Assembly (NCBI GenBank): GCA_919902665.1
Contig: CAKKRK010000074.1
Location: 1-41,678 of the forward strand
Direction: 5' to 3'
Length of the DNA: 41,678 bases
Origin: Nitrospiraceae bacterium
Lineage (GTDB): Bacteria > Nitrospirota > Nitrospiria > Nitrospirales > Nitrospiraceae
How positions within the stretch are numbered: position 1 is the stretch's first letter; the number at the start of each line of letters is the position of its first letter. The notes below the pieces were generated by a model. That model ran no database searches. It worked only from the letters and a program-made list of their open reading frames with translations, and had not been told where the DNA came from. Both the position numbers and the translations under genes were made by a program. Below are positions 2,572-16,244 of the stretch, piece by piece.

Positions 2572-4254
2572 TTATTGATAGTCCTCGTTCAGTGCCTTCA
2601 AGAACGCCGTGAGTGGAACGATGTCTTGGACTGTGAGGGCAATCCCTCCCAGCTCACGATCGCCGTTCCGTAAACCACCTGTACGTTGGAGATCCGATAC
2701 CTCACGGTAGAAATCCACAATCTGGTCAAGTGTGTCGAATTGACCGTTGTGCATGAAGGGCTCGGAATGTCCAAGGTCTCGAAGACCGGGTGTCTTGAAT
2801 CGCGCAATGGCACGATCGAGTAGGGTTGCATCCGGTAGTGGACAGGGCTGTTGATCGTCGCAGAGAATCGCACGGATCTTTGGCTGAGGTGCCGGCATGT
2901 CCGGATTGGCGAAGACGTTCCACAGGCCCAGGTCGGTCAATGTTGTGCCGGCAGCGGGAACGGCTCGGAATCGTTCGCTGGCCTGCGGGTGTTGTTTGGT
3001 AGCCGGCAGATCAGCGGCAGTTCGTGCCATGAGTGTGGGAATAGTCAAATTCCTGAAGGCCCCAACACCATGACCAGGAATCTCATCATATTCCCTCTGT
3101 GTCGTCCCCGTATTGTGGGCCTTGAAATCGGTGAAGTTCGGCGCGGCATGGCAGGCGACGCAGTTCCCAATTTTTCCGGCTGTTAGTTCAGCCGGTGAGG
3201 CAGCGAGCGCCGCCGGTTCCGTCAAGAACATCTTCAATCCAGCCAATTCCTGCGCCCCAAACGAGAATGGCTGGGTATGAAATTGGAACTGACCGTCTGT
3301 TCTGTTGGGGTTCGAGGTGACAAACTGAAGTGTCCCGGCCGACTCACGTGATTTCACGAGTTGCAGAAGACGTCTGCTGTAATCGATCGGAGATTCGTTG
3401 GCATTGGGCGCTTGCGGGAGCCTGTTGGTCTCCAGAAACACATCGAACGGAGAGCGGATTGGTGCTCCACTATCTTCGGTCTGTGAAAAGAGGAGGCTGT
3501 TGACGTAGGCGGTAACGACTTTGACGACGGCATCGAACACCTCCTGGTCGGTCGCGGAGTCGATCGTCTTGCGGAATTCCGAGGTGAGCTGGAATTCTTC
3601 TGGTATGGACGCATCAGTTCCGCCGAAAAGCACTCGGAAGGGGGTTCCGTCGAACTCCTTCGCCAGATCTCCGGTGCCGTTGTCGGACCTGACGATCCTG
3701 GCGATATGGGTGATGGCCTGGGTTCGTTCTCCAGGCAGCCAGCCGAAGTTTCTACCTGTGAAGGTGGCCGCGATCAGTTCTTCCATGGAGTTAAATTCGG
3801 CATCGAAATGGAATAAGACACCGTCTGGTCGATCGAGTGCTGAATTGACGAGAGGAGGTGAATTGCGGACGGCAACAGTTTTGCCGTCCGCTCGGACCGG
3901 GAGGGGGCTACGGCGCGCAAAATCAGCATAGGTCCGCATGCCGCCTCTCGGCGCATCCAGAATATCGTCAACCAAATGACAAGTCCGGCAATTCATTGAG
4001 AGCCCCTTGAATGGTCCCGGAGTGATCGGCGCACCCAAGGTTTCGACCGTATCGACGACGTTGTCACCGATCGTTGGATCATTCACGTCACCGCCGGTAT
4101 TCACGAACACCTTGAAGGCCTGGGCAAATCGTGTTTCCAGAAACAGCCGTTCGCCGACGGCTTCTTCAGCCCCTGGCGTACCGGTGGCGGTGAGAGGAGG
4201 TGGAGTACTCTCACTTCCTGAACAGGCGACGAGTCCAGTGAGGAATAGAAGCAA
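2572..4254 (-). CDS. Di-heme cytochrome c peroxidase/MauG-like lipoprotein
   Basis: About 560 residues. Two CxxCH heme c sites are visible, CRTCH at about 89-93 and CVACH at about 365-369, and the C-terminal part has the family pattern TPGLRDLGHSEPFMHNG...IVDFY. A hydrophobic stretch ending LTGLVAC is a lipoprotein signal, so the protein should be anchored in the periplasm. The family reduces hydrogen peroxide with electrons from c-type cytochromes, or oxidises protein or small substrates; which applies here cannot be told. It is longer than classical CcpA (about 330 residues). The start is problematic: the only usable in-frame start after a stop codon is TTG at 4254, without a ribosome site. 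The other frame just upstream offers ATG with MNQRSLVSSLL, which would complete a normal signal peptide if one base were shifted. Confidence 0.85.
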   Translation of the reverse strand: MLLFLTGLVACSGSESTPPPLTATGTPGAEEAVGERLFLETRFAQAFKVFVNTGGDVNDPTIGDNVVDTVETLGAPITPGPFKGLSMNCRTCHLVDDILDAPRGGMRTYADFARRSPLPVRADGKTVAVRNSPPLVNSALDRPDGVLFHFDAEFNSMEELIAATFTGRNFGWLPGERTQAITHIARIVRSDNGTGDLAKEFDGTPFRVLFGGTDASIPEEFQLTSEFRKTIDSATDQEVFDAVVKVVTAYVNSLLFSQTEDSGAPIRSPFDVFLETNRLPQAPNANESPIDYSRRLLQLVKSRESAGTLQFVTSNPNRTDGQFQFHTQPFSFGAQELAGLKMFLTEPAALAASPAELTAGKIGNCVACHAAPNFTDFKAHNTGTTQREYDEIPGHGVGAFRNLTIPTLMARTAADLPATKQHPQASERFRAVPAAGTTLTDLGLWNVFANPDMPAPQPKIRAILCDDQQPCPLPDATLLDRAIARFKTPGLRDLGHSEPFMHNGQFDTLDQIVDFYREVSDLQRTGGLRNGDRELGGIALTVQDIVPLTAFLKALNEDYQ

Positions 4255-4494: not shown

Positions 4495-5187
4495 CTACCA
4501 GTGAGGCCTGTCCCTTCCATACATCGTTTCCGGCTCTCTCATGAGTTCATCCAGGAGACCGACGACCGAAGGGTCAAATTGTGTTCCTGCCGCCACCTGG
4601 AGAATTCGCAGTGTAATGCGATCTCGAAGGGGTCGATCGTAAACTGCGGGGACGTGAATGGCCTCGAATGCATCGGCGACTCCAAGAATTCTTGCTCCCA
4701 ACGGGATGAACGTTCCCCTGAGTCCATAGGGATATCCCGATCCGTCCCATCGCTCGTGGTGATGGGCGATCATGACGGTGGCTTCACGAAGGAATGCAAA
4801 AGGTTCGAGCAACGTGGCTCCCAGCCGCGGGTGGTTTTGAATCGCCACATAGGAGTCTGGTTCAACCCATTCTCGTTTGGTTTGTAAATAGTGTGGAAGC
4901 ATGAGAACGCCGATATCGTGAAGCAGGGAGGCCAGTTTGAGCTGGTGCAACTCCTCGTCTGTGAGAGATGCGGCCCGTCCGATGTGGAGTGCAATCGCCG
5001 CTGTTCCCTGTCCATGACCGGCTTGCCACGGTAGAAGCCGGTCCAGTTCTTTCGCCACTTGCCGAATGAGAATACTCTCCAGATCGCGCCGCGAGGCGGA
5101 TGGCAGATGGAGACGATCGATCTTTGTGAGCATGCCCTGAATGGTCAAGACGGCCGGCTCGATCCGATCTGTACTGTCGACATGCAT
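4495..5187 (-). CDS. HD-GYP domain phosphohydrolase
   Basis: A 230-residue protein with the full HD-GYP signature: HDIGVLMLP, then HP-x2-GA, HHERWDGSGYP, GLRG and ARILGVADAFEA. HD-GYP enzymes hydrolyse cyclic di-GMP (some cyclic GMP-AMP) with a di- or tri-iron centre. The metal-binding HD and HH residues and the GYP loop are intact, so activity is expected. There is no receiver or transmembrane domain, only about 50 N-terminal residues of unclear role, so the input signal is not evident. The ATG at 5187 has GAGG eight bases before it. A terminator lies just upstream (5203-5243), so the gene probably has its own promoter or depends on read-through. Confidence 0.88.
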   Translation of the reverse strand: MHVDSTDRIEPAVLTIQGMLTKIDRLHLPSASRRDLESILIRQVAKELDRLLPWQAGHGQGTAAIALHIGRAASLTDEELHQLKLASLLHDIGVLMLPHYLQTKREWVEPDSYVAIQNHPRLGATLLEPFAFLREATVMIAHHHERWDGSGYPYGLRGTFIPLGARILGVADAFEAIHVPAVYDRPLRDRITLRILQVAAGTQFDPSVVGLLDELMREPETMYGRDRPHW

Positions 5188-5202: not shown

Positions 5203-5243
5203 AAAACGAAGAGCCCAGAATCACTCGGGTGATCCTGGGCTCT
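5203..5243 (-). terminator. Rho-independent terminator of the porin-flavoprotein operon
   Basis: AGAGCCCAGAATCAC at 5210-5224 pairs with 5229-5243 with one mismatch around a 4-nt loop. On the minus strand it is followed by TCGTTTTTG. It lies 49 nt past the stop of the four-helix membrane protein and marks the end of that operon. Confidence 0.8.
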
Positions 5244-5291
5244 GGGCGAATAGCCGCTGGCCGCTAGATGGTAGACCGCCAACTGAGATGG

Positions 5292-5810
5292 TTAGGACCC
5301 TGGTGGGTGCTTCCCTCCCATTAAAGGCTGTTCCAGTATCCACATTTCATACAGTGGGACCACCATCATGACTAAGAAACTGATCGTCATAAGGGTATCT
5401 CCGGTCAACATGGAGATCACAAACATCGGAGACACGTAGCTAATCAGCCAGGGCGATACCAGATCGAGCATCACGCCCCCGAAGCCAGCCCATGTGGTGA
5501 CGGCCTTGAGGGTATGGCTTGCACTGGTCAAATACATCACGTGGATCAAAATCATGAAGACGACTGGCATCGTGAAGAGATGAAAGTGGGTAATTTCCGC
5601 CAGCTCGCGAAACGACATCGGTTCCCCGAACGTCGCGTCCGATCCTCGATAATGCTCAGCGATGCCTTGCGGTGACAATCCCGTCATGCTATGTGCCCAA
5701 AAAAACGAAAATGTAAATCCAGCCAGCATCAAGAGCAAAAATAATGTGTAGAGCAACCGAATATGGCGATCTGAATCACGGAGCCTGAATTTTTGATTAA
5801 AGTTTCGCAT
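5292..5810 (-). CDS. His-rich four-helix inner-membrane protein
   Basis: From the ATG at 5810 the protein has 172 residues with about four hydrophobic helices (near residues 19-38, 73-95, 108-133 and 138-157). The second helix contains His75, His77 and His90. The 13-residue spacing between His77 and His90 is like the heme-ligand spacing of b-type cytochromes, and further His lie at 16, 40, 53 and 99. I do not recognise a named family. It follows the FMN-binding protein gene by 25 nt and ends the operon, so a role as the quinol- or heme-linked membrane partner that passes electrons to the periplasmic flavoprotein is plausible but inferred. A longer frame from 5894 overlaps the upstream gene and looks less likely. 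Confidence 0.75.
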   Translation of the reverse strand: MRNFNQKFRLRDSDRHIRLLYTLFLLLMLAGFTFSFFWAHSMTGLSPQGIAEHYRGSDATFGEPMSFRELAEITHFHLFTMPVVFMILIHVMYLTSASHTLKAVTTWAGFGGVMLDLVSPWLISYVSPMFVISMLTGDTLMTISFLVMMVVPLYEMWILEQPLMGGKHPPGS

Positions 5811-5835
5811 GTTTGGGACGCTGGGTCCGCTTTCG

Positions 5836-6525
5836 CTAGTTCCCGAAAATTGAAGGTAAAAACCCTTTATCTTTTTTTGCGGCCAGCGTATCACTGCCGA
5901 GCCCGGCAGGCTTCAGGTAGAACTCGTCAATCAACACGAGTACCCGCTTCACACCAGCGCTGATGGAACGGACGGACATTGTGGCGCCTGTGATATTGAT
6001 AATATCTTTGTTGATACGGATTGGGTCCAGGACTGACTTGCCTTCATATTGCACATTGAATCGTTTCCGTCCTACTTCGCTTCCTCTGGCTTCGCGAAAC
6101 ACCAACAGTTCGACGTCGGAGCAGACCCCTTTTGCATCGACACCGACCATGTAGGTCATATGCTTATGCTTGCCGATGGTATTGTGGACCATGGCGTAGC
6201 CGTCGATTGTATCACCCGTTTCACCAATATAGACTTCGAAAGCGTGTTCCGGGAATTTCCATCCGATGCGTTGTTCGATCAGATCTTTCTTATCTTGGGT
6301 GAGCTGGATCACTTCCTTTCGCACGCGTTGCGATTTGGGGAGGACGATCTTCACGGCCTCATCTTCTGACATGAAGACTTCAGCGTGATTCAACTCGGCC
6401 TCAGTGAGATAGCGCTTCAGATCGTTGTCCCACACCTTTTCGGCACGAGCCGAGAGGGGAATGGTGAGACAGAGTGCCGTCCCAATCGCGAAGCATGTGA
6501 AAATTGTTCTTAGGTGGCTGAACAT
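5836..6525 (-). CDS. Secreted FMN-binding domain protein
   Basis: A 229-residue protein with a signal peptide ending LSARA. The C-terminal half has the FMN-binding domain of the RnfG/NqrC type, including NITGATMSVRS, in which the Thr of TGAT is the residue that ApbE links covalently to FMN through a phosphoester bond. It is therefore expected to be a periplasmic flavoprotein carrying covalent FMN. Its start overlaps the upstream lipoprotein gene by 16 nt and has AGGA before it, showing translational coupling. Transferase ApbE is encoded about 2.5 kb away on the other strand. The N-terminal part (KRYLTEAELNHAEVF...) has no motif I can name. Acceptor and donor are unknown; ferric iron is one candidate given the Fur-box-like promoter. 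Confidence 0.9.
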   Translation of the reverse strand: MFSHLRTIFTCFAIGTALCLTIPLSARAEKVWDNDLKRYLTEAELNHAEVFMSEDEAVKIVLPKSQRVRKEVIQLTQDKKDLIEQRIGWKFPEHAFEVYIGETGDTIDGYAMVHNTIGKHKHMTYMVGVDAKGVCSDVELLVFREARGSEVGRKRFNVQYEGKSVLDPIRINKDIINITGATMSVRSISAGVKRVLVLIDEFYLKPAGLGSDTLAAKKDKGFLPSIFGN

Positions 6526-6986
6526 CCGTGTTCCTGCAACTTGGCATCGAGACGATCTTGCATGTCCCGCATGGCTTCTATGGAGGGATCAGTCGGGGCC
6601 CAGCCAAAGAGACGTGATCCTCCTCGAAAGACCCAGCTGTGCCGTTCTTCGATGAAAAATATTCTTGTCCCGTCGTCCGTCCGCTTCACTCGGAGCGTGA
6701 AGCGAGATCGGTCTCTGCTGTCTGGGATTTCCCGTCGAAACGCACCATACTTTCGACCTGGCATTGGAATGTCGAGCCAGTGTGTAACGATCAATCCAGC
6801 CTCTTTATCGTTCGTATCGGCCGACCGATCCTTTACGGCATCGATGGCTGCATCCCAGGCTTGGTCATAAGTACAGGTGGTCGTCCGTTGGTGCATGCCG
6901 CTGGTCAGCAAGGCGCAACCTCCCACACTTCCAATCAGAAGGAGCGGGAGGATGTTCAAGTTCATTCGCTGCAGAAGCTTTGTCAT
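6510..6986 (-). CDS. Lipoprotein of unknown function
   Basis: A 158-residue protein whose N-terminus (MTKLLQRMNLNILPLLLIG) ends in a lipobox SVGGC, so it should be lipid-anchored, probably to the outer membrane. The mature part begins with a Thr/Cys-rich stretch, then an alpha/beta region (TYDQAWDAAIDAVKDR, FTLRVKRTDDGTRIFF) reminiscent of small periplasmic domains of the BamC/DUF type, but I cannot name it. It sits between the porin and the FMN-binding protein genes and overlaps the latter by 16 nt. Its ribosome binding site GGGGAG lies inside the strong hairpin at 6994-7018, so translation may be limited unless the hairpin is opened. Confidence 0.8.
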   Translation of the reverse strand: MTKLLQRMNLNILPLLLIGSVGGCALLTSGMHQRTTTCTYDQAWDAAIDAVKDRSADTNDKEAGLIVTHWLDIPMPGRKYGAFRREIPDSRDRSRFTLRVKRTDDGTRIFFIEERHSWVFRGGSRLFGWAPTDPSIEAMRDMQDRLDAKLQEHGCSAT

Positions 6987-6993
6987 GTCATGA

Positions 6994-7018
6994 GCTCCCC
7001 GCCGATCCGGCGGGGAGC
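6994..7018 (-). promoter_or_regulatory. Hairpin sequestering the lipoprotein ribosome binding site
   Basis: An 11-bp perfect GC-rich stem (6994-7004 with 7008-7018, 3-nt loop) lies between the porin stop and the lipoprotein ATG. On the minus-strand transcript its 3' arm contains GGGGAG, eight bases before the ATG. It could reduce downstream translation, protect the porin mRNA from 3' decay, or both. Confidence 0.65.
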
Positions 7019-7034
7019 CTCCCTAGCTGTACGG

Positions 7035-8465
7035 TTAGAAGTAGGTCGCTGCCTGGAACAGAAATCCATCCCCGTCCATTGGACTACTGGCGGTTCCCAA
7101 ATCTCCTGCAGGGATTAATCCCACTGCACCGTTCTGGGCGTTATGCTGCCAGTTGATTTTAAACACCATGTCTTCGACGGGTCTGAAATTTAGACCGACT
7201 GTCAACCGGTCGAGTTCTCGCCGATTGCCAAGGGTGTTGGCCCCACCCACCGTGCGATTATCTGTGTCAGTATCGATTTGCTCCCAGCGCACCGTTGCCG
7301 TGAAGGTGGATGCATCAGAGAAGTGGCTGGGTGCCAGTCTCTTTAGGAGTTCCGGCATAAAGTGATAGTTCCCCTGAACATAGTAGCCAAACATGCCGGC
7401 AGGGCCTATTGCGTTGCCGGCCACGCCGGTGGCGTTGTTGTTGCTGATTCTGGTCCAGGCCGCTTCGCCGATCAACTCGAATGGACCTCGCTGCAAGGTC
7501 CAATCCACCGCGAAGATGTCGATGTTCCCTGAACCAACTGTAGCAGTGGAGGGCTTATATTGCCCATGGTATCCAGAGCCGGCGATCTCAATACCCAGCA
7601 TAGGACTAAAGGCCAGGCGACCAACGATGGCTTTACTGTCATCGCGATCTCGGGACACACTTCCGCGTGCACCCCGGATGCCCAAGTCCGTGACCGCACC
7701 AGCGGTTTGAGTCATGCCGTTGACCGCATAGAGTTCATAGTCGATTTTGGAGAGAGCCGATGGATAGAAGGTGCCATAGATACCAGCGCCGGCTTCGAAC
7801 CAGGTGCTCGGAACGATGAGTCTGGATACCATCGGCCGATCGACAAGGTCGTTCAAGGGTGAGTCGTGAAGCAAGTTAAATTTGCCGACGGGCATCAGAA
7901 GAATGCCGCCACGGAGATTGATTCTCTCATCAATCAGATAGTCTAGTTGAGCGAATTCGACCTGTATCGAACCATCCCCCTGCGGTGAGTTAGTCCCCCC
8001 ACGTTCGATTTCAATTTCCGTCGCGAATTTTACGCGATCGGTGATATCGGCAAAAATGAAGGGCACCAATCGCTGCTGGCCGAAACTATTGCGGCTGGGA
8101 TTGTCCAAATTTTGGCGAGAGAGGATGTTGTACATCACGTCCGCATAACCGCCGAGCGTGGCTTTGGGCATGCTTAAAAACGGTTTCGCGTAGATCAGCT
8201 TCCCCGATCCCGTAGATCCGAAACCGAGAGAGGTTTTTTCCTCGCCAGGGCGTCCCACCCGAATATCGGTCATAGGCCCGGTCGGCACTGGGTATTGCTT
8301 AGGCTGCGAACTTTCCGCAGGAACCCCTCGAGATTCACGTTCCTGTGCTTTTTGTAACGCCTCTTCGAGTCTTTTCACTCGTTCCTCAAGGCTCTCTTCT
8401 GCGAAGACCGGAGTGACCGACAGCGCAAGAATTGAAAGAGCCCCGAGGAGTAACCGCATCTTCAT
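7035..8465 (-). CDS. Outer-membrane porin (phosphate-selective porin-like)
   Basis: A 476-residue protein with a signal peptide ending TPVFA, a short coiled coil right after it (LEERVKRLEEALQKAQERES), a Pro-rich linker, then a long alternating hydrophobic/aromatic region typical of a beta-barrel, ending in Phe as outer-membrane proteins do. The coiled coil plus barrel resembles the OprO/OprP or carbohydrate-porin type, in which the coil forms trimers. The start ATG at 8465 has GGGAGG before it. It leads the lipoprotein, FMN-binding and membrane protein genes, and the Com-like gene with its Fur-box-like promoter lies 123 nt upstream on the same strand. The solute is unknown; a route for iron complexes or flavins is an inference. 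Confidence 0.85.
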   Translation of the reverse strand: MKMRLLLGALSILALSVTPVFAEESLEERVKRLEEALQKAQERESRGVPAESSQPKQYPVPTGPMTDIRVGRPGEEKTSLGFGSTGSGKLIYAKPFLSMPKATLGGYADVMYNILSRQNLDNPSRNSFGQQRLVPFIFADITDRVKFATEIEIERGGTNSPQGDGSIQVEFAQLDYLIDERINLRGGILLMPVGKFNLLHDSPLNDLVDRPMVSRLIVPSTWFEAGAGIYGTFYPSALSKIDYELYAVNGMTQTAGAVTDLGIRGARGSVSRDRDDSKAIVGRLAFSPMLGIEIAGSGYHGQYKPSTATVGSGNIDIFAVDWTLQRGPFELIGEAAWTRISNNNATGVAGNAIGPAGMFGYYVQGNYHFMPELLKRLAPSHFSDASTFTATVRWEQIDTDTDNRTVGGANTLGNRRELDRLTVGLNFRPVEDMVFKINWQHNAQNGAVGLIPAGDLGTASSPMDGDGFLFQAATYF

Positions 8466-8588
8466 CGGTATCCTCCCTGATTAAGTAATGGTTGTAGACT
8501 GACTCGGGACTCAATGGTCTCTGGCCTTCGGGTACATAGGAAACAGGACGACTGCATGACGGTCGTTTCTCCTCTTGGAACCGGATTA

Positions 8589-8765
8589 TCAGATTGCCGT
8601 TCCCCAGCCTTCGATTGAAGAAAAGGGGATCACGACAATACGCTTGCACCGCTTGCACTTCAGTTCCAAGCCTTGCCCGCTCACCTTGGCGATGAGCTGG
8701 CCGCACTCACAGCGGGTCTCATGAGTCTGGTCATGTTCCAATAAAGGAGCTTTCTCGATAGCCAT
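8589..8765 (-). CDS. Com-like zinc-ribbon protein
   Basis: A 58-residue protein that starts MAIEKAPLLEHD and contains RCECGQLIAKVSGQG followed by LELKCKRCKRI, that is two Cys-x2-Cys knuckles with the G-LIAK and LE-KC-RCK pattern of the Com family (phage Mu Com activates translation of mom by binding its mRNA). Length agrees with that family. It is the first gene after a strong promoter with an overlapping Fur-box-like site, 33 nt or so from the expected transcription start. A nucleic-acid-binding role in iron-responsive control of the following porin operon is plausible but inferred. Confidence 0.8.
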   Translation of the reverse strand: MAIEKAPLLEHDQTHETRCECGQLIAKVSGQGLELKCKRCKRIVVIPFSSIEGWGTAI

Positions 8766-8785
8766 GATGCCAGATTTCCCGCGTA

Positions 8786-8812
8786 ATGAAATTGAGAACG
8801 ATTATTAATATC
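8786..8812 (-). promoter_or_regulatory. Fur-box-like operator
   Basis: The + strand reads AATTGAGAACGATTATTAAT in this interval. It closely follows the common Fur-box form TGAGAATGATTATCA and overlaps the -10 element and start region of the minus-strand promoter. fur itself is encoded in the window. Confidence 0.65.
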
Positions 8813-8834
8813 CTGATCAGTGTCCCACTGTCAA
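8805..8834 (-). promoter_or_regulatory. Strong sigma70 promoter of the Com-like/porin operon
   Basis: On the minus strand, a perfect -35 TTGACA (8834-8829) and -10 TATTAA (8810-8805) are separated by 18 nt. It points at the Com-like gene and then the porin operon. The Fur-box-like site covers the -10 region, the usual geometry for repression. Confidence 0.7.
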
Positions 8835-9081
8835 GTGGGAAGTTATCACTGGCAAGGTGGATGTCGTGTGCGTTTCTGGGGGCGCTTGTCTTATAATTTC
8901 CACATGAGAATATGCTCTGTTGCCAAGAGCTTCTGTTAGTAAACATCCGACCCTTGGTGGGTGCTCGATGGTTGAGATCCTTCCTTATCCGGTGCAGAGA
9001 GGAGAATGGTTTACGAAGTGATGCGTATTCTGCGATGTCCCGGAATAGTTCATCGGCATTGGGGAGGAGAATAATCTAGCG
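8813..9081. other. Divergent intergenic region before apbE
   Basis: This spacer lies between the minus-strand porin operon promoter and apbE. Apart from the promoter's -35 element and the GGGGAGGAGA ribosome site of apbE, I see no convincing motif. A frame on the minus strand (8731-8946) lacks any family resemblance. Confidence 0.5.
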
Positions 9082-10107
9082 ATGAAGGCTCTCCTTCTAA
9101 ATACTAGGTCCATAGCGATAGCCGGCCTTGCGCTGGCATCCTTCGCGAGTTGCGCCGAAGTGTCACCCTCCCCTCTGCCCATCGTCCTAAAGCGTACTCA
9201 AATGCATATGGGGACTCTGGTTACGATCACGGCTGTGTCGCCCGACCAAGATGTGGGCAACCGGGCGATGCAGGTCGCATTCGATGAGATTAAGCGACTC
9301 GAACAGTTACTGAGTACCTGGCGTTCCGACAGCGAACTGTCACGGGTAAATCAAGAGGCCGGCCGTCGGCCTGTCCAGGTAAGTTCTGAGACGCTTGAGC
9401 TGGTTACTCGATCTCTGGAGTTAGGGCGCCTGACTATGGGTGGGTTCAATATTGCACTTGGTCCTGCCATCGAAGCTTGGAGTGTAATCGAACGGCAGCG
9501 CATCCCTGATGAGAGGGAGTTGCAACGATTGAAGCCTCTGGTCGATTGGACACGCATTCAAGTCAATCAAGAAGCGCGGACTATTTATCTGCCTCATACG
9601 GGAATGCGTATTGATGTTGGTGGGATTGGGAAGGGATACGCAGCCGATCGGGCGGTGGAGGAGATGAAGCGGGTGGGAGCGAGAGGGGGCGTCGTCGCCT
9701 TATCGGGAGATATCAAAACATTCGGCGTCCTTCCAAATCGAAACAGGTTTCCCGTCGGTATCAGGCACCCACGTGAGGAAGGGGCATTGATTGCCATAAT
9801 CGACCTGAACGATGAAGCGATTTCAACGGCGGGTGATTACGAACGGTTTTTCGAACGAGATGGCATCCGGTATCACCACATCTTGGATCCCCAAACATTG
9901 CAGCCGGCACGAGCTTGTCAGAGCGTCACGGTGATTGCCAAAGAAGGCACGATGGCTGACGGATTGGATACTGGGATTTTCGCGTTAGGACCAGAACAGG
10001 GGATGGCGTTGGTCGAGCGTTTGCCGGGGGTTGAAGCGATCATCATCGACCAGGCGGGCAAGATCACGGTCTCGTCCGGACTCCGTGGTCGGCTGCACGC
10101 ACCATGA
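9082..10107 (+). CDS. apbE: FAD:protein FMN transferase
   Basis: A 341-residue ApbE. It covalently attaches FMN, cleaved from FAD, to a Ser/Thr of target proteins in the periplasm, with Mg. Family motifs are all visible: HMGTLVTIT, IDVGGIGKGYAADRAVEEM, ALSGDIKTFG, ISTAGDYERFF, HHILDPQT and MADGLDTGIFALG, the last holding the metal-binding Asp. The N-terminus is a lipoprotein signal ending ASFASC. GGGGAGGAGA precedes the ATG. It is divergent from the operon that carries the FMN-binding protein with the TGAT motif, the obvious substrate, and convergent with tonB (14-nt gap). Regulation in parallel with the porin operon is possible because both read from the same intergenic region. Confidence 0.95.
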   Translation: MKALLLNTRSIAIAGLALASFASCAEVSPSPLPIVLKRTQMHMGTLVTITAVSPDQDVGNRAMQVAFDEIKRLEQLLSTWRSDSELSRVNQEAGRRPVQVSSETLELVTRSLELGRLTMGGFNIALGPAIEAWSVIERQRIPDERELQRLKPLVDWTRIQVNQEARTIYLPHTGMRIDVGGIGKGYAADRAVEEMKRVGARGGVVALSGDIKTFGVLPNRNRFPVGIRHPREEGALIAIIDLNDEAISTAGDYERFFERDGIRYHHILDPQTLQPARACQSVTVIAKEGTMADGLDTGIFALGPEQGMALVERLPGVEAIIIDQAGKITVSSGLRGRLHAP

Positions 10108-10121
10108 GGTGCCGAGGAGGA

Positions 10122-10976
10122 CTATCGGGCCATCTTGAGATCGTAACTAATCGAAAACTTTACTGGCATTTGGTGCCGTTCCAGTGGGCGAGAGAGCGTG
10201 ATCGGAGGGCCGCTTCTCACATCCTCCAAGGCAACTTGATCAAGCGCAGGATTGCCTGAGCTCTTCGCAATACGCACATCGCTCAAGAGTCCGTCTTCAT
10301 GCAGCATCGCGGTCAGCGTCACTTTCCCCTGAACACCCTCCGTTCGTAGCGTTGCCGGGTATCGTTTGTTGAGATCTTCAATCCACCGTGCCATGAGCTC
10401 CGTCAGCCATCCGTAGTCGGCTTTGGTGGGCGTGAGTTGGTTGGGAGGTGCCGAAGACACAATCATTGTAGACGAAGAGTCGACGGGAGAATCCTTAGCC
10501 ACCTGGGATTCAGGTAGAACGGTCGAATGCTCCTGTGCAGACATGATGAGGTCAGCAGATGGACCCGCTAGGTCCTGCCGAGCAACTTGAGGTGATGGGA
10601 CAGAAGGTACCGAATCAGGTGGAGCCTGTTCCTGATGAAGCTCTGGACTGATTGCATCGATAGGTACTGGCGCAGGTGGTGTGACCGGTCTCGTTCTTTC
10701 TTGAACCTGCTTCCCCGCTGGAGAAGCAGGTTGCTGAAGTGCCGGACTTGGCGGCGCCATTGCCCCAGACCTCGACGTGGCTCCCGATAAGGATGAGAGC
10801 GGAGCAACCATAGCCACATCCCACTGGAACGGGTCAGCCTGCGGCGCCAGCTGCATACGCTGGACGAACAAAATGGCTGCCACGGCTAGGCCTCCGTGTA
10901 GTAGGCAGGATACCAGCCAACTAGCCGCCAGAGGGCCAGTCTGACCGCGTGAACGCGTCATGGATTTCCCCATCAC
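10122..10976 (-). CDS. tonB: Energy transducer TonB
   Basis: A 284-residue protein with a basic N-terminus, one transmembrane helix (about residues 18-40), a long Pro-rich periplasmic linker (residues 65-180) and a C-terminal TonB domain (from about RYPATLRTEGVQGKVTL to the end), with the typical SSGNPALDQ motif. It transmits proton-motive energy from ExbBD to outer-membrane receptors. It overlaps exbD by 4 nt (ATGA) and is the last gene of the exbB-exbD-tonB set. No TonB-dependent receptor is in the window, so the receptor must be encoded elsewhere. Confidence 0.92.
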   Translation of the reverse strand: MMGKSMTRSRGQTGPLAASWLVSCLLHGGLAVAAILFVQRMQLAPQADPFQWDVAMVAPLSSLSGATSRSGAMAPPSPALQQPASPAGKQVQERTRPVTPPAPVPIDAISPELHQEQAPPDSVPSVPSPQVARQDLAGPSADLIMSAQEHSTVLPESQVAKDSPVDSSSTMIVSSAPPNQLTPTKADYGWLTELMARWIEDLNKRYPATLRTEGVQGKVTLTAMLHEDGLLSDVRIAKSSGNPALDQVALEDVRSGPPITLSRPLERHQMPVKFSISYDLKMAR

Positions 10977-11347
10977 AGGCGGATGACCTCCAGACTGACT
11001 TGCTGAAATCCTAAGCCGCGAATCTCGTCGACGAGGGCCACGAATTTCTCGAGCAGCGTGACTTTGTCGGCTCGCACGACCACCGCCGATTCACGCGGCT
11101 GCGCGTTGAGAACAGAGGGAAGGCCTCCATCGGGGACCGGAGAGTCATTGAAGAAGAGACTTCCATCAGCCGTCAAGGAAATCACGATGGGAACATCCTT
11201 CCGATCGCTCACCTCCTTGGCCTTGGCCAGGTTGACGGGAATTTGTCCCGTGCTGATGAAGGTGGCGGTCGTCAAGACAATGACGAGCAAGACCAACATC
11301 ACGTCCACGAGCGGGATCACGTTGATCTGATCAATGTTCCGTTCCAT
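10973..11347 (-). CDS. exbD: Biopolymer transport protein ExbD
   Basis: A 124-residue ExbD/TolR protein. The single transmembrane helix near the N-terminus contains INVIPLVDVMLVLLVIV, with the membrane Asp (about residue 15) that carries protons. The periplasmic domain follows (IVISLTADGSLFFND...VVVRADK). It overlaps exbB by 17 nt at its start and tonB by 4 nt at its end, so the three are translated from one mRNA. Length is normal for the family. Confidence 0.92.
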   Translation of the reverse strand: MERNIDQINVIPLVDVMLVLLVIVLTTATFISTGQIPVNLAKAKEVSDRKDVPIVISLTADGSLFFNDSPVPDGGLPSVLNAQPRESAVVVRADKVTLLEKFVALVDEIRGLGFQQVSLEVIRL

Positions 11348-11762
11348 GTTGTGTCCTATACTCGGTCAGGATCTCACTCACACGACGACGCAGCACGTTA
11401 TTCATCACGACACAGGGTATAGCGACCAGAAGACCGATGGCGGTCGCTTTCAATGCCAAGCTCAAGCCGATCATGATGGTACTCACGGCCATCGTCCCCG
11501 ACGTTCCCATCGTATGGAATGTCAACATTATACCAAGGACGGTTCCCAGGAGGCCGATATAGGGGGCGTTAGCAGCCACCGTACCAATAATCACGAGGCG
11601 TTTAGTCAGAGTGATTTCCAGTAGTTGCATGTTCGAAAACTGAGAGAGATTGATGCGTCGGTAAAAGAGCCAGCGCTCGATGGCGATAGCCACAGACCAC
11701 ACGCTCAGGGCCAGTAACAGGCCGATAACTCCGAAATCAATGATGTCTTTCAACGCATCCAT
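11331..11762 (-). CDS. exbB: ExbB/TolQ-type proton channel, short form
   Basis: A 143-residue MotA/TolQ/ExbB protein with three hydrophobic helices. The core APYIGLLGTVLGIMLTF and GLSLALKATAIGLLVAIPCVVMNN stretches are diagnostic. It is shorter than E. coli ExbB (about 240 residues), like the compact ExbB of several non-enteric phyla. AAGGAG stands five bases before the ATG. It begins the exbB-exbD-tonB set, 123 nt downstream of fbpC on the same strand. Confidence 0.9.
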   Translation of the reverse strand: MDALKDIIDFGVIGLLLALSVWSVAIAIERWLFYRRINLSQFSNMQLLEITLTKRLVIIGTVAANAPYIGLLGTVLGIMLTFHTMGTSGTMAVSTIMIGLSLALKATAIGLLVAIPCVVMNNVLRRRVSEILTEYRTQHGTEH

Positions 11763-11885: not shown

Positions 11886-13013
11886 CTAGGAGTGAGGAGA
11901 TGGTTTGGCAGGAAAGAGAACCGTGTGCGTGGCAGAGACACGGAGTTCGACGGCGGTCCCTTCTTGGTAGACGCAGGTTGAGCTTTCACTGCTGTGGATG
12001 ATCTGCCCGGATGGGAGCTGGATCGTGTAGAGATTTTCAGACCCTCTGAACTGGCGGGCCACAACCCGAGGTTCGGCTGATTTATTGGGCATGAGCTGGA
12101 TGTCGTCCGGGCGGATCATGACGACGACCGTGCTTCCCTCAGGACTGTTGAGCGTATCAGGGAACTCTCCCAGTTCGGTATGCACTCTGCCTTGTCGAAT
12201 CTGTCCGGTGACAAAGTCGGCTTGGCCCACAAAATCGGCCACGAACCGCGTGGCGGGGAGATGATAAATCACCTCCGGGGAATCCATTTGCTCGAGTACG
12301 CCCTGATTTAGGACGGCGATGCGGTCGGCCATGGCGAAGGCTTCATCATGATCGTGGGTCACAAGAATGGTCGTAGTTTTCATTCGGCGTAACAAGGCAT
12401 GGACTTCCTGCCGCATACGGCCCGCCATATCGGGGTCAAGGTTGCTGAACGGCTCATCAAGGAGGAGCAAGACTGGATTTTGCACCAGCGCTCGGGAGAG
12501 TGCCACTCGCTGCTGCTGTCCTCCTGACAATTCATGCGGGTAGCGTCGGTCGAGCCCTTCGAGGCCGGTCAGCCGCAGCATTTCTTGAACCCGACATGTC
12601 CGTTCCGCCCGTGACAGATGATGAAGCCCGAAGGCAATGTTCTCGGCGACGCGCAGGTGTGGAAAGAGGGCGTACTCCTGAAAGACCATGCCGACACGGC
12701 GGTCCTCCGTCGGAATCGTTTCCAAGGACGAGGAGACCAACCGGTCCGATAAAAAGATTTGTCCGGACCGAACTGGTTCAAAGCCGGCGATGGCTCGTAG
12801 GACGGTGGTCTTGCCACAGCCGGACGGTCCAAGCAAACAGAGGATTTCGCCTTCTCGTGCAGAAAATGAAATATCGCGGATTGCCGGTCTGCTGGGATCG
12901 TAGGCACAGGACACAGAACGGAGGTCCAAGATGGAGGAGGCCGGCGTGGAGAGGTGGAGGTGACCTTCATGCCGGTCGGCATCCACCTGTGTCATGTGCA
13001 ACGGTGTGTTCAT
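11886..13013 (-). CDS. fbpC: Ferric iron ABC transporter ATPase
   Basis: The ATG at 13013 gives 375 residues, just after the permease stop at 13021; a longer in-frame start would overlap the permease. Walker A GPSGCGKTT, Q-loop FQEYALFPHL, signature LSGGQQQR, Walker B LLLLDEPFSNLD and H-loop VTHDHDEA are all intact. A C-terminal TOBE-type region follows (VVVMIRPDDIQLMP). With the neighbouring permease and binding protein it forms an FbpABC-type importer of ferric iron through the inner membrane. Confidence 0.92.
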   Translation of the reverse strand: MNTPLHMTQVDADRHEGHLHLSTPASSILDLRSVSCAYDPSRPAIRDISFSAREGEILCLLGPSGCGKTTVLRAIAGFEPVRSGQIFLSDRLVSSSLETIPTEDRRVGMVFQEYALFPHLRVAENIAFGLHHLSRAERTCRVQEMLRLTGLEGLDRRYPHELSGGQQQRVALSRALVQNPVLLLLDEPFSNLDPDMAGRMRQEVHALLRRMKTTTILVTHDHDEAFAMADRIAVLNQGVLEQMDSPEVIYHLPATRFVADFVGQADFVTGQIRQGRVHTELGEFPDTLNSPEGSTVVVMIRPDDIQLMPNKSAEPRVVARQFRGSENLYTIQLPSGQIIHSSESSTCVYQEGTAVELRVSATHTVLFPAKPSPHS

Positions 13014-13020
13014 AGCGATG

Positions 13021-14604
13021 TTATGCGGCCCGCCAATCACGGGATAGCAACAAGGCGAGCGCCGGTAGGCCAACGAGCACGATCAATAAGGCGGATGGGG
13101 CCGCAAGTTGGTAATACTCTTCACTTGCTTCCAGCCAGACACGGATGGCCAAGGTGTCAAACCCCACCGGTCGCAACAACAATGTCGCGGGGAGCTCCTT
13201 CATCGTCTGCAAAAAGATCAAGACCCACGCCACGATAACCCCGTTACGAATGAGCGGCAGCGTCACGCGACGCCAGGTCTCTCGGACGGTCAGACCCAGG
13301 GTGCGGGCGACTTCTTCAAGATTCGGCGTGATCTGTTGAATCGAGGGTTCAAGCGACTGGAGCCCGGCTGGGAGATAATGCAGGACATAGGCGACGATCA
13401 ACACGAAGACCGTACCATAAAAGAACGGCAGGACGTTGAGAAAGAGGACCAAAACCGCGAGTGCGGCGACCGGTCCTGGGAGGACATAGCCGGCGTACGC
13501 GGCTTGCAGACAACCAGTATTGAGCCAGGTTGGTTTTCGGCTGGCGAGGTAGGCGAGAGGCAGCCCAACCAATACGCCGGCCGTGGCCGCTAGGGTCGAC
13601 AGCAGGGCGCTGTTCCAGACGAAGCTGAAGAAGCGGGTATCGAGAATCGCTTGGGCTTCAGGGGATAGACTCCATGTCACCAGGAGAGAAACGGGGATTC
13701 CGAAGGCCAAGCCGATCACGGTGCTCAGGCATGTCGTGAGCGCTGCCGTGTGCCACCATCCGCACTGGATGCGTTGAGGCGCTCGAAAGCGCCCGCTGGT
13801 CTGGTAAAACCGGCTCTTTCGACGAGACCATCGTTCAGTCAATAAGAATAGGAGCGCCAGGATGACTAATAGGATGCTCAGGATACTTGCGGCCTGGTTG
13901 TCAGACCGTCCGGTCATTTGCTGAAAGACGGCGTAGGTCAAGGTTTGATAACGCAGCAGAGAGACGGCACCAAAGTCGGACACGACGTACAGGATAACAA
14001 GGGCGACGCCGGCGACGATTGACGGGCGTAGCAACGGAAGGGTGACGAACAGCATTCTCCGAAGTGGTGACGCGCCACATGTGCGGGCGACTTCTTCAAA
14101 CGACACGTTAAAGCTGAGGAGTGCACTGCGCGTGAGCAAGTAGACGAAGGGGAACGTATCGAGCGCCATCACAAAGGTGACGCCCCAGAAACTTTGGGGT
14201 GAGAAGATTCTGGCTTGAGGTCCGGCGATCATCTGCCAGAGCTGTTCTACTGGGCCGCCGAATCCCAAGAGATAGTTGTACACATAGGCCAGGACGTAGG
14301 TCGGCATGGCGAGTGGCAACACAAGCCCGACTTCCCACAGTCGGCGGCCGGGGAACTCAAATCGTGTGACCATCCAGGCGGTCGTGACGCCGAGCCCGAG
14401 CGTCAGCAATGCCACGGCGCCCGCCAAGGAAATCGTATTCCACAACAGTTCCGGGACTCGAGTGGTCCAGAGCCGATACCACACCGAGAGATCGGCTGAC
14501 AAGGCGAGGGTGGTGACATAGCCGAGAGGTAACAGGATCAACGTCGCGCTGGCTAGGGCGGCGAGTTGGAGCGGTGAAACAGCTGATCGGCGTGCGACAG
14601 TCAC
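13021..14604 (-). CDS. fbpB: Ferric iron ABC transporter permease, fused two-domain type
   Basis: A 527-residue inner-membrane protein with about twelve helices, made of two tandem permease units. Each carries an EAA loop: EEVARTCGASPLRRMLFVTLP in the first half and EEVARTLGLTVRETWRRVTLP in the second. The internal duplication is typical of FbpB/SfuB. It lies between fbpA (15-nt gap) and fbpC (7-nt gap) in one operon. Confidence 0.93.
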   Translation of the reverse strand: MTVARRSAVSPLQLAALASATLILLPLGYVTTLALSADLSVWYRLWTTRVPELLWNTISLAGAVALLTLGLGVTTAWMVTRFEFPGRRLWEVGLVLPLAMPTYVLAYVYNYLLGFGGPVEQLWQMIAGPQARIFSPQSFWGVTFVMALDTFPFVYLLTRSALLSFNVSFEEVARTCGASPLRRMLFVTLPLLRPSIVAGVALVILYVVSDFGAVSLLRYQTLTYAVFQQMTGRSDNQAASILSILLVILALLFLLTERWSRRKSRFYQTSGRFRAPQRIQCGWWHTAALTTCLSTVIGLAFGIPVSLLVTWSLSPEAQAILDTRFFSFVWNSALLSTLAATAGVLVGLPLAYLASRKPTWLNTGCLQAAYAGYVLPGPVAALAVLVLFLNVLPFFYGTVFVLIVAYVLHYLPAGLQSLEPSIQQITPNLEEVARTLGLTVRETWRRVTLPLIRNGVIVAWVLIFLQTMKELPATLLLRPVGFDTLAIRVWLEASEEYYQLAAPSALLIVLVGLPALALLLSRDWRAA

Positions 14605-14619
14605 GAGGCGCTCGCGCGG

Positions 14620-15687
14620 TTACCGCATCCCGACTTGTTCGATGAGCAGTAATGTCGGCTCTCGGAGTTCGGCGAGCTTGGTCAATGGGACTAAGGCTGC
14701 CCGGAAGCTCTTCCGTTCGAGCAACGCGGGGTCTGCTTTCACCTCTGGATGGAGCGGGTACTCCTTGTCGAGGTCGGCGAACATCTTCTGGCCGGCCTGC
14801 GCCACGAGAAATTCCACGAGCAATTTGGCGTTCTCCACGCGGGGTGTGTGTTTCAGGATGCCGATGCCCGCCACGTTCATGATGGCGCCCATGCCCCCCT
14901 CCTGTTGATCGGGCATCACAACCGCCAGCGGTGCAGCCGGTTGTGCGGCGAGATGCCGGTAGACGTAATAGTGATTCACGATGCCCATGGCGACCTGACC
15001 CTTGGCGACGGCATCAACGATCTGCGAGCTTTTTTGGTAGACCTGTGTGCCGGCGTTATCCCGAAGCCCTTCGAGGAATTTTTTGGTGTGATCGTCACCG
15101 AGACTCGCGCGAATGACCGACACTCCTGCCTGCAAATATTCGCTGCCGGCGTTAGGAATGGCGATTTTGTCCTTCCACGTAGGATCGGCTAGATCCACCA
15201 AGGACTTGATCTGATCGGGCTTCACCAGTGTCGTGTTGTACACAACAATCCAAAACCGGCCTGACAAGCCGATCCAGCTGTTGTCTGCTGCGCGGAATTG
15301 AGGAGGAATGGCCCGTTCGACTTCCCGCATGTTCAAGGGGCGGAAGAGTCCCGCCGTGCGTGCCAGTTCCAAGCTGCCGGCATCATTGGTGATGAAGAGA
15401 TCGGCGGGGCTGCGGTCTCCTTCGGCCTTCATCCGGTTCACCAACTCAGTGGTACCGGATGAGAGTAACTCGATGTGAATCCCAGTCTTTGCCGTGAAGG
15501 CATCCAAGACCGGCTTGATCAATCGTTCGGCCCGTCCAGAATAGATGGTCAACGTGTCGGCAGCAGAGGTGATGGCCGGCATGACCAGCCAGAAGAGCAT
15601 CAGGAAACAGGTGGCTGAAATGCCTAAGGCCCTCCGTTGATGGGCAAGGGCTGTGATACGAGAGGAAGGTTGAAGGACCATGCGCAT
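14620..15687 (-). CDS. fbpA: Ferric iron-binding periplasmic protein
   Basis: A 355-residue protein with a signal peptide ending ITSAA, then DTLTIYSGRAERLIKPVLDAF, the start of FbpA/FutA-like proteins. NHYYVYRH near residues 239-245 supplies the paired Tyr that bind Fe(III). It delivers iron to FbpBC. Two close ATG codons (15687 and 15681) could start it. It is the first gene of fbpABC, with its own promoter in the gap after fur. Confidence 0.93.
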   Translation of the reverse strand: MRMVLQPSSRITALAHQRRALGISATCFLMLFWLVMPAITSAADTLTIYSGRAERLIKPVLDAFTAKTGIHIELLSSGTTELVNRMKAEGDRSPADLFITNDAGSLELARTAGLFRPLNMREVERAIPPQFRAADNSWIGLSGRFWIVVYNTTLVKPDQIKSLVDLADPTWKDKIAIPNAGSEYLQAGVSVIRASLGDDHTKKFLEGLRDNAGTQVYQKSSQIVDAVAKGQVAMGIVNHYYVYRHLAAQPAAPLAVVMPDQQEGGMGAIMNVAGIGILKHTPRVENAKLLVEFLVAQAGQKMFADLDKEYPLHPEVKADPALLERKSFRAALVPLTKLAELREPTLLLIEQVGMR

Positions 15688-15812: not shown

Positions 15813-16244
15813 TCATTGGCGGCAGGGGGAGCAGAGACCGTAGAGCTCAAGGCGGTGGGTTTGGATTGTGAAGCCGTTCCGTGAGGCCACCTCTTCCTGG
15901 AGGCGCTCGATGTCGCAGTTCTCGAACTCCACAATCTTTCCGCAGCCGGTGCAAATGAGGTGATCGTGGTGGCCCTTGTGCGAGATGTTGTCGTACTGCG
16001 TTTGAGTGCCGAAGTGGCGGGCTTGAGCCAGACCGGCTTCGCAGAAGAGGTTCAGCGTGCGGTAAATGGTTGCCAAGCCCAGGTGAGGATCCTTTCTGGC
16101 CAGTTGGTGGTACATCTCTTCGGCTGTAATATGTTCTTGCTTGAGAAATGCGTCGAGGATCAGTTCACGTTGGCGCGTGAATTTCAGCTGGTGCTTCCCG
16201 AGGTGCTCCTTCAGGACACCCATTTCTTTGACATGTTTGGACAT
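15813..16244 (-). CDS. fur: Ferric uptake regulator Fur
   Basis: A 143-residue Fur protein. The winged-helix part holds KFTRQRELILDAFL and LATIYRTLNLF. The metal-binding part holds KGHHDHLICTGCGKIVEF and a C-terminal CSPC, which together give the regulatory His site and a Cys4 structural zinc site. It represses iron genes when Fe(II) is abundant. It lies directly upstream of fbpABC on the same strand and divergent from the 16.4 kb gene. Other Fur-superfamily members (Zur, PerR) cannot be fully excluded, but the iron-gene context favours Fur. Confidence 0.9.
   Translation of the reverse strand: MSKHVKEMGVLKEHLGKHQLKFTRQRELILDAFLKQEHITAEEMYHQLARKDPHLGLATIYRTLNLFCEAGLAQARHFGTQTQYDNISHKGHHDHLICTGCGKIVEFENCDIERLQEEVASRNGFTIQTHRLELYGLCSPCRQ

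Follow-up and report, generated by a model that had tools for sequence, protein, structure and literature searches.

Flavinylated iron systems and the Nitrospira locus

Flavinylated systems, in which ApbE attaches flavin mononucleotide (FMN) at [ST]GA[ST] motifs, are reported to serve iron in other bacteria (PMC8238504), as are PepSY reductases such as HiuABC (PMC13001220). Here, a candidate system of this kind was analyzed in a Nitrospira-like genome (3.56 Mb, 99.86% complete) of a Nitrospiraceae bacterium, Nitrospira being major nitrite oxidisers on whose iron acquisition the literature says little at the level of titles and abstract openings. The DNA analyzed, hereafter the window, is the 41,678-nucleotide contig C74 (CAKKRK010000074.1), and it carries an operon for a Com-like protein, a porin, a lipoprotein, a secreted FMN_bind protein and a four-helix membrane protein of 172 amino acids (TM4), with apbE encoded divergently. 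We lean, if not strongly, to the view that these genes specify an iron-repressed, flavinylated periplasmic reductase system that is driven by TM4 and serves iron assimilation.

The PepSY-like flavinylated iron systems likewise combine, in Gram-negative bacteria, ApbE with a periplasmic flavin substrate and a membrane carrier, and are Fur-repressed in some bacteria and linked to TonB receptors (PMC8238504). Their substrate, however, is a DUF2271 protein while that of the present locus is FMN_bind, the present locus has genes for a Com-like protein, a porin and a lipoprotein in addition, and TM4 gave no PepSY_TM match in Pfam. The DUF4405/FezC proteins are, like TM4, small membrane proteins with conserved His residues, and are tied to flavinylation or iron (PMC11334425), but where TM4 has four helices DUF4405 has six, with four His at the centre, and TM4 did not match PF14358 at E values up to 1. 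HiuABC of Caulobacter and FoxB of Pseudomonas are comparable as Fur-regulated, inner-membrane ferrisiderophore reduction systems with a small extra membrane protein, and differ in using a PepSY reductase, with no flavoprotein named in the abstract (PMC13001220). The P19-associated iron assimilation system also places an FMN_bind gene within an iron-uptake cluster (PMC8238504), whereas in the present genome FTR1, the one of the two (P19 and FTR1) that was searched, had no match.

The operon's FMN_bind protein also resembles RnfG (E 5e-7 against an RnfG PDB chain; E 1.7e-5, below the cut-off, against the NCBIfam rnfG model), but unlike in the RnfG/NqrC systems no NqrB/RnfD-like membrane subunit was detected by Pfam and NCBIfam among the five operon proteins and ApbE. 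An MsrQ-like carrier was not indicated either, TM4 having no PF01794 match and four helices in its model rather than six, and a thiol or Fe-S carrier (NapH-like or DsbD) was rejected because TM4 has no Cys and no Pfam match. The flavinylation surveys cover NapH-, MsrQ-, PepSY-, DsbD- and NQR/RNF-like, P19 and DUF4405/FezC systems (PMC8238504, PMC11334425), and the strings ‘Nitrospir’ and ‘porin’ are absent from the main texts of both. The papers found that combine Nitrospira with iron uptake, ApbE or FMN-binding gave no description of the system in their titles and abstract openings. The predicted system would thus belong to a known kind, the flavinylated iron reductases, with a TM4 that, as judged by Pfam, falls outside all surveyed membrane families.

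FMN_bind and TM4 are linked across Nitrospira and beyond

An earlier note, made from the sequence alone, had described the five genes as a one-strand block that ends at one terminator and faces a divergent apbE, and open reading frame (ORF) coordinates together with Pfam agreed with it in genes, strands and order. Gene assignments were made by Pfam and NCBIfam models with their cut-offs. The FMN_bind protein (229 amino acids; 5836..6525, minus strand) matches PF04205 above the cut-off (E 1e-6) and carries at residues 179-182 a TGAT motif (5980..5991, minus strand) with the predicted flavin-attachment Thr; TM4 is encoded at 5292..5810 (minus strand). The flavin transferase ApbE (9082..10107, plus strand; PF02424, E 4e-82, 276 bits) has, by eye, a lipoprotein-like signal.

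Among related stretches in Nitrospira, 133 were confirmed and 80 of these retained (L002-L081); counts over 81 loci add the window copy, and each linkage test on L002-L081 was restricted to loci with enough sequence, many ending at contig ends. TM4 and FMN_bind are both present in all 81 loci, the porin and the lipoprotein each in 76, the Com-like gene in 69 and apbE in 64. FMN_bind lies immediately upstream of TM4 in 75 of the 76 testable loci, and apbE is upstream and divergent in 55 of 56. The Com-like, porin, lipoprotein and FMN_bind genes are co-stranded within 4.5 kb upstream of TM4 in 59 of 65 loci, 57 of which keep the exact order, and a terminator-like hairpin follows TM4 in 57 of 79 loci versus 34 of 400 random windows. 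[ST]GAT was found in 75 of the 81 FMN_bind genes, and the remaining six may be partial. The earlier note had named a lack of conserved linkage in related genomes as what would refute it; the linkage is conserved.

The misses comprised L081, where the FMN_bind match stops 212 bases before TM4; L005 and L035, both without a Com match and L035 also without apbE; L043, whose best Com match is downstream; L008 and L044, whose best porin match lies farther upstream than usual; and L018, without porin and lipoprotein, with Com downstream only and a partial FMN_bind. The porin position in L008 and L044 suggests a second porin copy or a rearrangement.

Beyond the genus, 40 loci spanning the range of TM4 were chosen, and their genes were marked by profiles built from the Nitrospira set. 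FMN_bind stands beside TM4 in all 19 order-level loci (L132-L149 and L151). In the nine class-level stretches, from other orders of the class (L112-L120), the gene order differs, and fur occurs in seven, a porin in six and Fbp-like genes in four. Of the eight TM4-positive genomes outside the class, five have FMN_bind adjoining TM4 (L121, L122, L124, L125 and L129; the L121 match to Pfam is weak, E 0.073), and in L121, L122, L125 and L129 a porin precedes FMN_bind; the remaining three (L126; L127 with L130; L150) hold long or diverged TM4 relatives in other settings. A chance neighbourhood was rejected since the linkage is kept across Nitrospira and the deeper loci, and the FMN_bind/TM4 linkage and the divergent apbE were counted in favour of a reductase.

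TM4 is a predicted heme-b carrier

TM4 was sought in 395 Nitrospirota genomes and in plasmids. Its profile matched 135 of the genomes, in 38 of 169 genera, a few of these with only long or diverged relatives, whereas tblastn of TM4 and of one long relative against plasmids returned no match; the closest public relatives of the window's TM4 come from Nitrospira metagenome-assembled genomes (98-99% identity). The protein contains no Cys, and it matched no Pfam family above the cut-off and no NCBIfam family. Y54, G56, E72, H75, H77, H90 and W121 are invariant in 43 aligned sequences (22-92% identity to the window's), which bears out the His-rich membrane protein of the earlier note. The structure model (mean predicted local distance difference test score, pLDDT, 86) has long helices at residues 15-43, 67-92, 99-125 and 128-157, and the A1 model agrees.

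H75, H77 and H90 all lie on one helix. The basic N terminus suggests an N-in topology, by which that same helix would place H75/H77 close to the periplasm and H90 close to the cytosol, and the spacing between H75/H77 and H90 resembles that of b-type cytochromes. Heme in TM4 is plausible in view of the conserved His residues; with ligands on a single helix a dimer would be required, as in FezC, which has been modelled as a homodimer with heme b (PMC11334425). The three invariant His on one helix and the lack of Cys were counted for the reductase reading.

Long relatives of TM4 (L123, L128, L130, L131 and L150; about 220-270 amino acids) have a first loop with CxxCH and share a conserved HxHLFG helix, and no FMN_bind neighbour was found for them at these loci. 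The first-loop CxxCH fits an N-in electron carrier because heme c is attached outside the cytosol. In L127 (3928-5849), an FMN_bind-like protein with neither [ST]GA[ST] nor a Pfam match is encoded between a short and a long CxxCH-bearing relative of TM4.

Comparisons with other families were made with A2, an alignment of TM4 without the long relatives and without L126, L127 and L129. Profile comparison of A2 with DUF4405 was not significant, giving 1.5% probability with three DUF4405 ORFs and 2.8% with seven weaker DUF4405-model matches, against 0.1-0.4% for unrelated controls; in the weaker set, sampled from L161-L180, several members resemble cytochrome b and one ORF is probably in the wrong frame, two ORFs of at least 300 amino acids having been dropped. 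A PDB profile search with A2 returned a single match, a plant NDH subunit (E 0.05), and Foldseek with the TM4 model gave 68 matches at E ≤10 and none at ≤0.001. VIA-align ranked cytochrome c oxidase chains first (Z ≤8.0), possibly by chance as for helical bundles, and no kinship is claimed; there was no PepSY, MsrQ or DUF4405 structure among the matches listed, which proves nothing. TM4 is possibly a new class of membrane electron carrier.

A conserved Fur-type site and an iron-like setting

The operon is preceded by a promoter-like TTGACA-16-GATATT (8807..8834, minus strand; 10 of 12 consensus bases), whose −10 element is overlapped by the Fur-box-like 19-mer GATATTAATAATCGTTCTC (8794..8812, minus strand), which scores 15/19 by the best 19-base match to a Fur consensus. 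Promoter-like and terminator-like patterns as such are not enriched here over shuffled sequence (3 versus 5.2 and 8 versus 6.2), so it is conservation that carries weight. In 67 aligned upstream regions TTGACA is retained though most of the flanking sequence varies, and the 19-mer is exact in 55, has one change in eight and two in two, and is lost in two, in keeping with the Fur-box-like promoter described earlier. The best Fur-consensus scores of these 67 regions were 15/19 in 57, 14 in seven, 13 in two and 10 in one, compared with scores of at least 14 in 28 of 1340 random windows from the same loci, some of which are perhaps the site itself. The genome holds no second exact copy of the 19-mer; two sites with three mismatches (none for a control pattern) lie within an ORF and across the start of a nuoJ-like ORF. 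In deeper loci that carry a Com-like gene, 14 of 21 reached a Fur score of at least 13, versus 32 of 420 random windows, with sites that are differently worded, e.g. GATTATGATAATGATTCTC in L113. The operon thus looks like one under a predicted iron-responsive, Fur-type operator.

Beyond apbE follow tonB-exbD-exbB (10122..11762, minus strand, by Pfam), an ATP-binding cassette (ABC) transporter that we read as Fbp-like (11886..15687, minus strand, by Pfam) and a Fur-family regulator (15813..16244, minus strand; Pfam FUR, E 1.5e-35; best NCBIfam model Fur, 104.6 bits versus a cut-off of 146), and a ferritin-like gene lies on the opposite side, an iron-like setting that supports the iron role suggested in the earlier note. 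ExbB is upstream in 48 of 51 loci and TonB in 45 of 51. An iron link of the system is likely from the Fur-type site, fur, TonB/ExbBD and the ferritin-like neighbour, together with the described precedents.

ApbE-FMN_bind fusions in related orders

The pairing of ApbE with FMN_bind holds through co-location and, at the nine class-level loci L112-L120, through an ApbE-FMN_bind fusion that adjoins TM4. Pfam recognised both domains in all eight complete fusions, L113 and L114 among them, and in L119, which begins at a contig start, the FMN_bind half is preceded, by eye, by the end of ApbE. From the motif, the pairing and the fusions, flavinylation of the FMN_bind Thr by ApbE is very likely.

In the window, each of the two proteins, ApbE and FMN_bind, has a signal of its own, and neither signal contains a twin arginine. 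By contrast, seven of the eight complete fusions start their ApbE domain at residue 9-19, which leaves no room for a signal; in L113 the domain begins at residue 100, the true start of the protein being uncertain. A hydropathy scan was rejected as proof of a signal-less fused ApbE, because it is insensitive and misses the signal of the window ApbE too; the reading is based instead on the start position of the ApbE domain. The segment between the two domains has a twin-arginine stretch and then a hydrophobic run; the stretch shows RRxF[LM] in eight of the nine fusions and SRRRVL in L117. The simplest reading is that a cytosolic ApbE would attach FMN and the folded flavin domain would then be exported by the twin-arginine translocation (Tat) route. 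Cytosolic ApbE is known, and so is ApbE fused to its substrate in the trypanosomatid fumarate reductase (PMC12052999). The papers found on flavinylation and Tat gave no description of an ApbE-twin-arginine-FMN_bind fusion in their titles and abstract openings.

Such a route would reverse the usual order of export and flavinylation, and it forms part of a joint interpretation to which we would give not quite an even chance, namely that TM4, as a four-helix b cytochrome that is probably a dimer and has its heme ligands on a single helix, founds a new carrier class and drives a flavinylated iron reductase in the periplasm, and that the fusions of the sister orders are flavinylated in the cytosol and exported folded via Tat. 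The fusions would offer a natural test of FMN attachment in the cytosol before folded export.

The only other ApbE/FMN_bind pair of the genome is in an nqr-like operon on contig C189 (L160), recognised by eye from gene order and lengths, so that the pair of the present operon looks dedicated. That the present ApbE serves the nqr-like operon was rejected, since that operon has its own apbE. This dedicated pair, the class-level fusions beside TM4, the conserved Fur site and fur in seven of the nine class-level stretches were all counted for the reductase reading.

Proposed electron route and its alternatives

When iron is scarce, Fur would leave the operator and the operon would be transcribed, as the conserved site suggests. 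ApbE, a predicted exported lipoprotein, would attach FMN to the TGAT Thr of the secreted FMN_bind protein. TM4, with its N terminus in the cytosol, would probably form a dimer with b hemes held by its second helix, through H75/H77 near the periplasmic face and through H90 near the cytosolic one, and would hand electrons on to the FMN domain, quinol being their most likely source. The flavoprotein could then reduce ferric iron or its chelates arriving via the porin or a TonB receptor, upon which the iron would be released and imported, the Com-like protein and the lipoprotein being accessory parts. If this is true, a flavin-based iron reductase can be named for many Nitrospira, a membrane electron carrier class so far absent from Pfam and NCBIfam is added, and heme in a 172-residue protein and FMN on one Thr become testable predictions.

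Several points weigh against this electron route. Covalent flavin, heme and iron reduction are all predicted; no quinone or NAD site was identified in the system; and the structure searches gave no cytochrome match beyond chance for helical bundles. TM4 is common yet not universal in the genus (38 of 54 sampled genomes positive), its long relatives, by eye, retain HxH and lack H90 as well as E72, and seven of the 21 deeper loci have no good Fur-like site (scores 10-12). The ABC transporter scores best against 2-aminoethylphosphonate models, for which reason an outright ‘ferric’ label was rejected, and none of its NCBIfam models reaches the cut-off, so that its iron substrate is read from the setting only. 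Finally, for Fe(II) import no FeoB_C, Nramp or FTR1 match was found in the genome; together with six TonB-receptor plug domains on other contigs, this favours reductive release in the periplasm followed by ABC import.

The same route might serve a different end from iron uptake: it could reduce copper, protect periplasmic proteins or sustain respiration at low iron, for instance. Its substrate is itself predicted, a supporting role for heme-copper oxidoreductases is reported for CrpH, a PepSY_TM protein (PMC13038864), and 33 of 64 loci have a diheme peroxidase-like gene downstream; nevertheless, the Fur-type site, the fur gene within the cluster and the adjoining TonB/ExbB/ExbD speak against it, and we regard a non-iron purpose as unlikely.

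A serious rival, for which we see only a small chance, takes TM4 as a small Fe(II) permease whose E72, H53, Y54, H75, H77 and H90 line a metal path, the flavoprotein being reduced by another donor and supplying the Fe(II). The invariant Glu and His residues on one helix would suit such a path, as would a genome without FeoB_C, Nramp and FTR1. Yet the CxxCH-bearing long relatives keep HxH without E72 and H90, the flavoprotein would be left with no electron donor in the cluster, and FeoB_C is present in all eight TM4-positive genomes outside the class. FeoB_C occurs in 193 of the 395 Nitrospirota genomes, of which a single one, G390 (E 6e-4), belongs to the window's class; the absence of FeoB was rejected as evidence for the system, being a clade trait independent of TM4 presence.

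That porin and flavoprotein form an outer-membrane conduit that would reduce iron outside the cell, in the manner of porin-cytochrome complexes but with flavin, is very improbable despite the recurrence of a porin ahead of FMN_bind outside the class, because the porins (about 380-490 amino acids) have ordinary solute-pore size while barrels enclosing a protein are larger, Pfam groups the window porin with diffusion porins, and a single flavin domain makes no multi-step wire. The earlier note had drawn the porin into the electron route; gene order is the extent of the support for this, and an ordinary solute pore suffices.

Other features of the locus

The first operon gene (8589..8765, minus strand) encodes a 58-residue protein with a CxC...CxxC pattern, for which the ‘Com’ label is weak (14.1 bits versus a Pfam cut-off of 22.9); it stands first in the operon in Nitrospira and is found in the cluster of six of the nine class-level loci. 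The Porin_O_P-like outer-membrane porin follows at 7035..8465 (minus strand; Pfam E 1.7e-7). The lipoprotein (158 amino acids; 6510..6986, minus strand) matched no Pfam family above the cut-off and has a lipobox Cys that is invariant in 74 sequences, and its gene overlaps that of FMN_bind by 16 bases. The terminator-like hairpin found by the pattern scan (5210..5243, minus strand) has 15 pairs and a T-rich tail.

In 27 of the 81 loci (e.g. L004:5302-5913, minus strand), an extra lipoprotein-like gene, without a Pfam family and absent in the window, lies just upstream of apbE on the same strand. Downstream of the operon, the window encodes on the minus strand a diheme peroxidase-like protein (CCP_MauG, slightly below the cut-off) and an HD-domain protein, at 2572-4254 and 4495-5187, respectively, and past the terminator the HD-domain gene is retained in 62 of 74 loci.

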